DNA of 50,077 bases from Prevotella sp. (lineage in GTDB: Bacteria > Bacteroidota > Bacteroidia > Bacteroidales > Bacteroidaceae), in the NCBI GenBank assembly GCA_017623155.1, contig JAGAPR010000098.1, forward strand, positions 70,601-120,677. Direction: 5' to 3'. Both the position numbers and the translations under genes were made by a program. A model generated the notes under the pieces. It worked only from the letters and a program-made list of their open reading frames with translations. It had not been told where the DNA came from and ran no database searches. Numbering within the stretch: position 1 is the stretch's first letter; every line of letters starts with the position of its first letter. Positions 48,778 through 49,914 of this stretch are shown here, in pieces.

Positions 48778-48850
48778 CGGGGTGTAGCACAGTTGGCAGC
48801 GCGCCACGTTCGGGACGTGGAGGTCGGAAGTTCGAGTCTTCTCACCCCGA
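48778..48850 (+). tRNA. tRNA-Pro(CGG)
   Basis: A 73-base cloverleaf: acceptor CGGGGTG / CACCCCG, anticodon stem CCACG / CGTGG with loop TTCGGGA and anticodon CGG, T-loop TTCGAGT, discriminator A. CCA is not encoded. Its last 14 bases plus two more are repeated at 49762-49777, so its 3' end appears to have served as an integration site. Confidence 0.97.
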
Positions 48851-48852
48851 CT
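48837..48852 (+). repeat. attL-like copy: 3' end of tRNA-Pro
   Basis: TCTTCTCACCCCGACT, identical over 16 bases to 49762-49777. Confidence 0.75.
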
Positions 48853-48863
48853 CTTTAAGAGTT

Positions 48864-48898
48864 AAATCCTTGCAGCTCACAGAGTTGCAAGGATTTTT
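48864..48898 (+). terminator. terminator after tRNA-Pro, inside the element
   Basis: A perfect 11-pair stem AAATCCTTGCA / TGCAAGGATTT with an 11-base loop and trailing T residues. Confidence 0.85.
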
Positions 48899-48908
48899 CA
48901 AAATATGC

Positions 48909-48926
48909 CGGGACAGATTCGGGACA
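48909..48926 (+). repeat. CGGGACA double motif, copy 1
   Basis: Two CGGGACA units 11 bases apart, one DNA turn. Identical over 18 bases to copy 3 at 49670. Confidence 0.8.
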
Positions 48927-48965
48927 TGTCGTTTTATTTAAATTTTCGATTTGCAAGCACAATAT

Positions 48966-48996
48966 TTTGAAGTACAGTGTTTTATTTATATATTTG
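48966..48996 (+). promoter_or_regulatory. promoter of mntA-hepT (TTTG-N19-TATATTTG)
   Basis: TTTG (48966-48969) and TATATTTG (48989-48996) are 19 bases apart, a full consensus match. The predicted start is near 49000, so the leader of about 29 bases contains motif copy 2. The repeat AAGTACAGTG (48970-48979) fills the spacer. Confidence 0.75.
48970..48988 (+). repeat. AAGTACAGTG repeat, left copy
   Basis: AAGTACAGTG followed by TTTTATTTA; the right copy at 49687-49705 has AATTATTTA. 17 of 19 positions agree. Confidence 0.6.
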
Positions 48997-49008
48997 CAAA
49001 CGACTAAC

Positions 49009-49026
49009 CGGGACAAAATCGGGACA
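49009..49026 (+). repeat. CGGGACA double motif, copy 2 (in the mntA leader)
   Basis: Same two units at 11-base spacing, with AAAA in place of GATT's first bases between them. It lies between the predicted transcript start and the mntA ATG, an operator-like place. Confidence 0.8.
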
Positions 49027-49028
49027 AC

Positions 49029-49334
49029 ATGAAAATAATCGAATTAAATCTTCATAAGATAATAGATATCTGCAAGCGCTTCCACGTGCGTAAGCTATGG
49101 GTGTTTGGTTCCATATTAACGTCTCGTTTCAACGAAGATAGCGATGTCGATTTTTGTGTCGACTTTGAGTGGGATAAAATCCCCATGCTTGATTCGGCAA
49201 ATAATTTTTTTGGATTTCAAGAAGCCCTTGAATTACTCCTTGAACGCAAAATAGACCTCACCGATGACAGCGCTGTACGTAATCCATATTTCCGCGAAGA
49301 ATTAAACGAAACACGCCAACTCATCTATGGATAG
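49029..49334 (+). CDS. mntA: MntA-like minimal nucleotidyltransferase (antitoxin)
   Basis: A 101-residue minimal nucleotidyltransferase. The motif GSX10DXD is exact: G27 S28, then D39 and D41 in FGSILTSRFNEDSDVDF. A third acidic residue is D76 in KIDLTDD. In the MntA-HepT systems, MntA adds AMP to a tyrosine of the HepT RNase and so silences it. All catalytic residues are present, so this gene looks functional. The last 8 bases overlap hepT, the usual coupling. Regulation by the CGGGACA motif in its leader is possible. It is foreign in composition compared with purD. Confidence 0.88.
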   Translation: MKIIELNLHKIIDICKRFHVRKLWVFGSILTSRFNEDSDVDFCVDFEWDKIPMLDSANNFFGFQEALELLLERKIDLTDDSAVRNPYFREELNETRQLIYG

Positions 49335-49697
49335 GAAAATTCAAAAATCATTATATGATATCCTTCAGTGCGTCGAAGAAGTCGAATCATATTTTGATTC
49401 GGTTCCTCGCAGATTTGATTACTATTATGAAAATGCACTCCTGCGAAGCGCAATTCATATGAATATATCTATAATCGGCGAAGCGACAAATAGAATCCTG
49501 AAAATAGACCCGACTATTGCAATATCCAATGCCAAAAAATAGTTGGCACTCGTAATTATTTAATTCATGGTTACGATAGCTTGAGGTTGGAAATGATATG
49601 GGCTATAGTTATAAACGATTTGCCAAAACTTAAGCAAGAAGTTTTATTTATATTAGGCCAAGACGGAAACGGGACAGATTCGGGACAAGTACAGTGA
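49327..49697 (+). pseudogene. hepT: HepT-like HEPN toxin, frameshifted before its catalytic motif
   Basis: The frame from ATG 49327 stops at TAG 49540-49542 after 71 residues, ending DPTIAISNAKK. In the -1 frame, reading continues IVGTRNYLIHGYD and on to TGA 49695-49697, for about 123 residues in all, a normal HepT length. The break lies at a run of six A (49534-49539); seven would restore the frame. R (49551), H (49566) and Y (49572) of the RX4HXY RNase and AMPylation motif fall after the break. As written, the toxin is inactive. A sequencing error, true mutation, or slippage on the A run would each explain it. The 3' end overlaps motif copy 3. Confidence 0.75.
49670..49687 (+). repeat. CGGGACA double motif, copy 3 (inside the hepT 3' end)
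   Basis: Identical to copy 1. In the restored hepT frame it encodes part of the C-terminal tail GNGTDSGQ. Confidence 0.8.
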
Positions 49698-49705
49698 ATT
49701 ATTTA
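49687..49705 (+). repeat. AAGTACAGTG repeat, right copy
   Basis: Pairs with 48970-48988, 717 bases apart in direct orientation. It adjoins motif copy 3. Confidence 0.6.
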
Positions 49706-49761
49706 CGTTAAACGCAGTCTTCTAATTGAGCGCAAAAATGGTAAATTACGGGGGCTAACTT

Positions 49762-49777
49762 TCTTCTCACCCCGACT
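49762..49777 (+). repeat. attR-like copy of the tRNA-Pro 3' end
   Basis: TCTTCTCACCCCGACT, identical to 48837-48852. The rest of the tRNA is not present here. Confidence 0.75.
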
Positions 49778-49788
49778 AAATTTCAATA

Positions 49789-49822
49789 AATGGGTCTAAC
49801 TCATCGAGTTAGACCCATTTTT
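49789..49822 (+). terminator. terminator past the right repeat
   Basis: A perfect 14-pair stem (AATGGGTCTAACTC / GAGTTAGACCCATT, loop ATC) runs into TTTTT. It was probably the tRNA-Pro terminator before insertion, now 940 bases away. Confidence 0.85.
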
Positions 49823-49831
49823 CGCAATGAG

Positions 49832-49914
49832 GCCGGGTTAAATCGGGGTCAGCGGACAAGAGCTACCAACCGTTCCTGTCTACAGAACCTAAAACCCCGG
49901 CGTCCCATTGGTTT
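49832..49914. other. foldable intergenic block sharing the TCAGCGGACAAGAGC motif
   Basis: GCCGGG near 49833 can pair with CCCGGC near 49908. Inside, GACAAGAGC and GTTCCTGTC form an imperfect stem, and GTTCCTGT/ACAGAAC offers an alternative. The motif at 49849-49863 is shared with 11401-11478. No open frame was found from 49823 to the window end. Confidence 0.4.

Follow-up and report, generated by a model that had tools for sequence, protein, structure and literature searches.

The 3′ end of a tRNA-Pro(CGG) gene near the right end of the 50,077-bp stretch analyzed here (the window) raises the question of whether a 925-base segment that carries little besides a toxin-antitoxin (TA) pair is a mobile unit and, if so, what could move a unit that has no integrase. 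As the original prediction had stated, the last 16 bases of the tRNA region recur 925 bases downstream. The repeat, TCTTCTCACCCCGACT, is exact (48837–48852 and 49762–49777), and no third copy was found when both strands of the window were searched. The longest downstream match to the tRNA is 16 bases, whereas shuffling the region 2000 times with a first-order Markov model gave matches of at most 12 bases, a length reached in three shuffles. The contig ends 300 bases past the right repeat, which is the limit of readable sequence on that side. The target gene and the two cores are as follows.

48778..48851, + strand: tRNA-Pro(CGG), the target gene, whose 3′ end is the left core (ARAGORN; Rfam tRNA, 58.9 bits)
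48837..48852, + strand: left core (attL), 16 bases, exact repeat
49762..49777, + strand: right core (attR), 16 bases, exact repeat

The only recognized genes inside the unit are mntA and two pieces of hepT, accompanied by a putative promoter element and a hairpin; a second hairpin lies just past the right core.

48864..48896, + strand: hairpin with T-run (inverted repeat I3, 93%), probably a terminator that came with the element as a replacement
48989..48996, + strand: TATATTTG, putative −7 box of a possible TA promoter
49029..49334, + strand: mntA, 101 aa, minimal nucleotidyltransferase antitoxin with the motif GSX10DXD (Pfam PF01909; PADLOC PDC-S09)
49327..49542, + strand: 5′ piece of hepT, 71 aa, ending at an early stop (Pfam PF01934)
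49509..49697, + strand: 3′ piece of hepT in another frame, with RX4HXY as RNYLIHGY (ORF reading)
49788..49820, + strand: hairpin with T-run past the element, seen by eye in inverted repeat I1 and similar in related loci; native terminator or end of an older element

Passages of PMC7641770 describe the MntA/HepT (HEPN-MNT) pair as having the MNT gene first, GSX10DXD in MntA and RX4HXY in HepT. The window likewise has the MNT gene first, and both motifs are encoded, but it differs in that hepT is spread over two frames, so that no intact HepT with RX4HXY is present, and in that integrase-type arm sites flank the pair. The 5′ HepT-like piece scores 21.5 bits against PF01934, below the cut-off of 23.5, and the remainder of the gene lies in a different frame, so "broken hepT" is correct for this assembly; a full-length HepT relative is present in genome G592. 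Because its hepT is frame-broken, the copy in the window is probably losing its addiction function. No integrase-sized ORF appears between the cores in the ORF list, and integrase or virion ORFs of the kind found in Nixviridae-like prophages (see below) are absent there. ORFs, Pfam matches and the hepT frames thus agree with the original description of a segment that holds mntA, a broken hepT and short repeats and that lacks an integrase. The TATATTTG sequence we take to be a Bacteroidetes-type −7 box. A stricter terminator scan called neither hairpin, and the promoter and terminator scans were close to shuffle level. Both hairpins that had been proposed as terminators, an original one beyond the right copy and a replacement within, are seen, but the "original" status of the right one is less certain: integrase-bearing elements can have the same hairpin type as their left end, as in L167 and L224, so an older element may end in the right flank. 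Behind the right hairpin, CCGGGTTAAATCGGGG (49833–49848) resembles, by eye, a degenerate arm pair and could likewise mark an older element's end.

Three paired sites of the form CGGGACA-N4-CGGGACA, at 48909, 49009 and 49670, make up the short repeats.

48909..48926, + strand: P′ arm pair, +67 from the left TCACCCCGAC
49009..49026, + strand: extra arm pair, beginning 20 bases ahead of the mntA ATG
49670..49687, + strand: P arm pair, −97 from the right TCACCCCGAC and within the hepT 3′ codons

In the 2.74-Mb assembly to which the window belongs (G000), CGGGACA pairs with a gap of 3–5 occur four times, three of them in the window and the fourth on contig C79 (4.8 kb); the backwards control gave none. 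These pairs read as arm-type sites beside both cores, and as such they explain the element.

The same layout is found in phages that use tRNA-Pro. An IMG/VR scan for TCACCCCGAC followed by a CGGGACA-type pair returned 13 contigs, all with the pair at +66 to +69. In 11 of the 13 fetched stretches there follows a relative (41–78% identical) of P0001, the 406-aa integrase behind tRNA-Pro in G552 (Pfam; PHROG integrase); the other two stretches, L233 and L234, end 171 and 284 bases on. P0001-type integrase genes sit at tRNA-Pro 3′ ends. On the other side of the core, a second pair lies at −95, −96 or −108 (up to two mismatches allowed) in all seven of the 13 contigs that have a readable left side without a tRNA (L227, L228 and L231–L235), although L231, L232 and L235 share one left side and look like one phage; six genome junctions have a pair at these distances as well. 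With its pairs at +67 and −97, the window fits this arrangement, the right pair being one to two bases off the usual −95/−96. The Porphyromonas gingivalis phage BK068113 encodes an integrase 43.5% identical to P0001; one of its pairs lies at +68, and a second begins 91 bases short of the other end of its record. Passages of PMC10367356 place the tRNA-proline prophages of P. gingivalis in the proposed family Nixviridae and state that Nixviridae commonly encode TA genes; by its att site, BK068113 would be a member. The window has the same tRNA-Pro target, the core TCACCCCGAC and arm pairs at near-equal distances, so that its insertion has the att layout of these phages, but it lacks integrase, replication and virion genes and spans 925 bases against about 42–50 kb (record lengths). 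The original prediction had suggested looking for larger islands with the same repeats at this tRNA, and such phage-type sites do exist. In G796, for example, an integrase-bearing attL on the tRNA side is separated by about 50 kb from an attR-type junction on the same contig, a full-size counterpart of the 925-base unit.

The host of the window must be considered before related loci are compared. Its last 2,820 bases are identical to JAGASI010000021.1, from the Muribaculaceae MAG RGIG8729 (water-deer colon), and G000 contains purD twice (59% alike) as well as a duplicate tRNA-Pro(CGG); G000 looks chimeric, with the window (contig G000:C80) apparently misbinned there. The relatives of G000's nominal genus are therefore misleading for comparison, and their tRNA-Pro (at most 87% over the whole gene) and PurD (55–63% at full length) are distant. 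The nearest PurD relatives among named genomes are 62–70% alike (L042–L063 and L065), and most of their genomes contain tRNA-Pro(CGG) at 97–100%. PurD synteny was abandoned as a guide, since none of 30 related loci scanned has tRNA-Pro beside purD. The tRNA-Pro locus carries an integrase gene in the relatives L128, L167 and L197. An empty site, with the tRNA end followed directly by the terminator, had been named as proof of insertion; L132/L160 and L138/L165 do have tRNA-Pro and a similar hairpin without arms, but these are other species, and the data compared hold no empty site of the same species. A search of the window's own assembly with P0001 (E 1e-40) gave a sole match, 35% identical, and no close integrase. 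This gene was rejected as a helper, its flank reading by eye like a tRNA-Ser end and no tRNA having been found there. On the window's contig but outside the window, locus L214 (G539:C44:109087-110157) has the 35%-identical integrase and an arm-like pair, TCGGACAAATTCGGGACA.

Units of this kind recur. Among 397 family genomes, 35 contain a total of 41 attL-type sites (control, 0), which tblastn and ORF reading divide into 18 with an integrase, five with TA genes only, one with a lone HTH antitoxin-like gene (G559; it resembles the gene beside HicA), five unreadable because of a contig end or Ns, and 12 with neither integrase nor TA; the last group, left ends that stand alone next to other genes, indicates that remnants are frequent at the tRNA-Pro site. 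The TA-only sites are those of the window, G818, G589 (contig C48), G576, whose zeta pair is broken, and G874. The pattern missed three more units: G592, with mntA and full-length hepT; G555, with a zeta-type pair and then mntA, a similar left end standing ahead of each; and G558, with a left end and an mntA that by eye is internally deleted. The TA cargo of the other Muribaculaceae units is MntA-HepT, a zeta-type pair or HicA. Pfam supports the zeta toxin, HicA, nucleotidyltransferase and HepT assignments; the gene adjoining HicA matches HTH_3 alone, which makes its HicB role putative, and the small gene before zeta has no Pfam match. In G589 the 5′ part of hepT was not found. On contig C48 of this genome the MntA unit follows directly on a right end of phage type, made up of an HTH gene, a pair at −95 and the core; the integrase-bearing tRNA-Pro(CGG) end of G589 is on contig C11 (L197), which the assembly does not join to C48. 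In G689, G728, G796 and G745, too, a right end of this kind stands ahead of the core. Of the G689 right-end proteins, PHROGs matches one to a transcriptional regulator and another to a family whose function is unknown; it has no match for the right-end HTH gene, and in the G728:C12 prophage it identifies a tape measure protein. The second core agrees with the 16-mer of the window at 15 positions in G818 and at 12 in G592, against all 16 in the window itself, and nine of 12 tRNA-Pro-linked mntA loci lack one in the stretch examined with up to four mismatches allowed. Among 22 loci with 1.1–19 kb readable past tRNA-Pro (up to two mismatches), a second core was seen only in the window and, as a single minus-strand match, in L162. 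The unit is one of a recurrent kind, bounded by phage att sites, without integrase and with TA cargo; a partial literature search recognized no integrase-less TA-only units at phage att sites.

The arms and the TA genes fit together closely. In G818 (arm at +824, ORF 483–849) as in the window, the 3′ codons of hepT contain the P arm. An extra arm pair stands 20 or 21 bases ahead of the mntA ATG in four of 19 MntA loci (L313, L314, L317 and L327), and in G576 it stands 20 bases ahead of the ATG of the zeta antitoxin. This tight fit argues against random deletion, and the position of the extra arm at the start codon suggests control by an arm-binding protein. Within the set of 41 sites, the extra pair occurs at three of the five TA-only sites and at two of the 12 sites with neither (L275 and L291). 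The left end of L291, 86% identical over 281 bases to that of the integrase-bearing L292, seems to be what is left of a broken phage and so speaks against a strict link between extra arm and TA. None of 30 phage-type sites, 28 of them with an integrase hit, has a separate extra pair, two candidates there overlapping the first pair.

Relatives of MntA are present in 149 of the 397 family genomes (E at most 1e-20), and the surroundings of 30 loci among these matches were examined. Of the 19 closest (68–100% alike, the window included), 12 lie within 1.3 kb behind tRNA-Pro(CGG), one behind a phage-type junction and six behind neither; two of the 12 tRNAs stand at a contig start and escaped ARAGORN, but their sequence identifies them. 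Close MntA relatives also lie directly behind what by eye is an L-serine dehydratase gene, not a tRNA, in L318, L319 and L321. Seven of the next 11 (56–62%) stand behind tRNA-Ala(GGC), namely L333, L334, L336, L337, L338, L340 and L341, six of them 65–74 bases after it, and neither a tRNA repeat nor arms were recognized at these loci. The MntA tree clusters the locus labels, and neither group forms one clade. Viral contigs yielded no close MntA; the best match in phage records is 34.7%, and plasmid records (11) contain relatives at 51.5% or less. Comparison with one host marker, PurD, gives a conflicting picture of relatedness. PurD of the four unit-bearing species is about equally far from that of the window (65–67%), whereas MntA is 90% identical to it in G592 and 70–72% in the other three. 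For the window and G592, MntA is 90% identical (85% in nucleotides) against 67% and 62% for PurD, and for G589 and G818 the values are 98% (89%) against 69% and 65%; the units of the latter two align over 796 bases at 85%, from the P′ arm onward. Misbinning cannot account for the hosts of the window and G818, where purD is on the contig that carries the unit, though it could account for those of G592 and G589. Fourfold sites (window/G592: 15 of 31 in mntA against 100 of 152 in purD) are less decisive, so the exchange is not very recent. The conflict between MntA and PurD suggests that the unit moved between species.

We think it probable, though by no means assured, that the segment is a non-autonomous integrated mini-element, in which the phage-type attL and attR of a Nixviridae-like tRNA-Pro phage surround one TA operon that stands where the phage genome would otherwise be. 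This reading draws on the cores, the arm spacing, the lack of an integrase, recurrence with varied TA pairs, the tandem with a phage and the host-marker conflict, and mobilization in trans is likely, at least in the past. When present, the cognate phage integrase would bind to the arms and carry out recombination between the 16-base cores, and excision would release a circle of 925 bases, closed at an ordinary phage-type attP; alternatively, the circle could insert at another tRNA-Pro. The TA pair would meanwhile keep the unit in the chromosome by addiction. The original prediction left the choice between a remnant and a helper-moved unit, and both survive; the latter is strengthened by a likely helper family, by repeats that match its arm spacing and by the recurrence of TA-only units.

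A less probable but still serious competitor is that the segment is dead, the remnant of an internal deletion in a TA-carrying Nixviridae-like prophage, and never moved as a 925-base unit. TA genes are common in Nixviridae according to passages of PMC10367356, nine of the 12 relatives tested have no recognizable right core, 12 of the 41 attL sites are lone ends and the left end in G558 adjoins the mntA that looks internally deleted; however, a deletion does not readily account for a compact layout that recurs with different TA pairs, several with the arm 20–21 bases before the antitoxin start, for a P arm inside the hepT 3′ codons in both the window and G818, or for units in conflict with the host marker. 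It is considerably harder to believe that the TA pair is a vertically inherited chromosomal neighbor of tRNA-Pro around which phage ends gathered. MntA does lie 75–79 bases behind tRNA-Pro(CGG) with no recognized arms in L316, L320 and L323, and the loci behind tRNA-Ala(GGC), seven of 11, show no repeat, yet the arm pairs on both sides put the window's TA genes inside an att pair, and MntA and PurD disagree in similarity. That the repeat is a coincidence and there is no element has the shortness of the core in its favor and nothing else; shuffles never exceeded 12 matching bases and the arm spacing is near that in phages, and in our view these two observations refute it.

If the segment is such a mini-element, it resembles but does not coincide with known classes. 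CIMEs (cis-mobilizable elements), according to passages of PMC5704250, have lost their integration genes, keep attL and attR and occur in tandem with other elements. The unit likewise keeps attL and attR, has no integration or transfer genes and has counterparts in tandem, but CIMEs are defined by decay of ICEs or IMEs, whereas the ends here are of phage type, not of ICE/IME origin, and the TA-only layout recurs; it would work like a CIME, and we do not file it as one because its ends match phage att sites. Similarly, it would need a phage for its movement. Phage satellites (PICI, P4-like) depend on a phage in this way and carry their own integrase or packaging-interference genes; the unit differs from them in that no integrase, regulator or packaging gene of its own was recognized.

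A further and rather unlikely idea is that these are mobile TA cassettes of less than 2 kb that use a phage attachment site as an alarm. Integrase bound to the extra arm would shut off the TA operon and would also excise the unit as an unreplicating circle, so that arrival or induction of a tRNA-Pro phage would strip the cell of its antitoxin source and free the toxin, and different toxins (HepT, zeta, HicA) could be swapped within the same frame. The occurrence of the extra pair in a broken integrase-type left end as well makes this slightly less likely still.

If the mini-element reading is right, temperate phages of Bacteroidales would have minimal hangers-on that consist of a TA pair between phage attachment ends, and TA pairs could have a concrete way of passing between species that needs neither plasmids nor complete phages. 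The response of TA pairs beside phage landing sites to phage integrase would then become directly testable.
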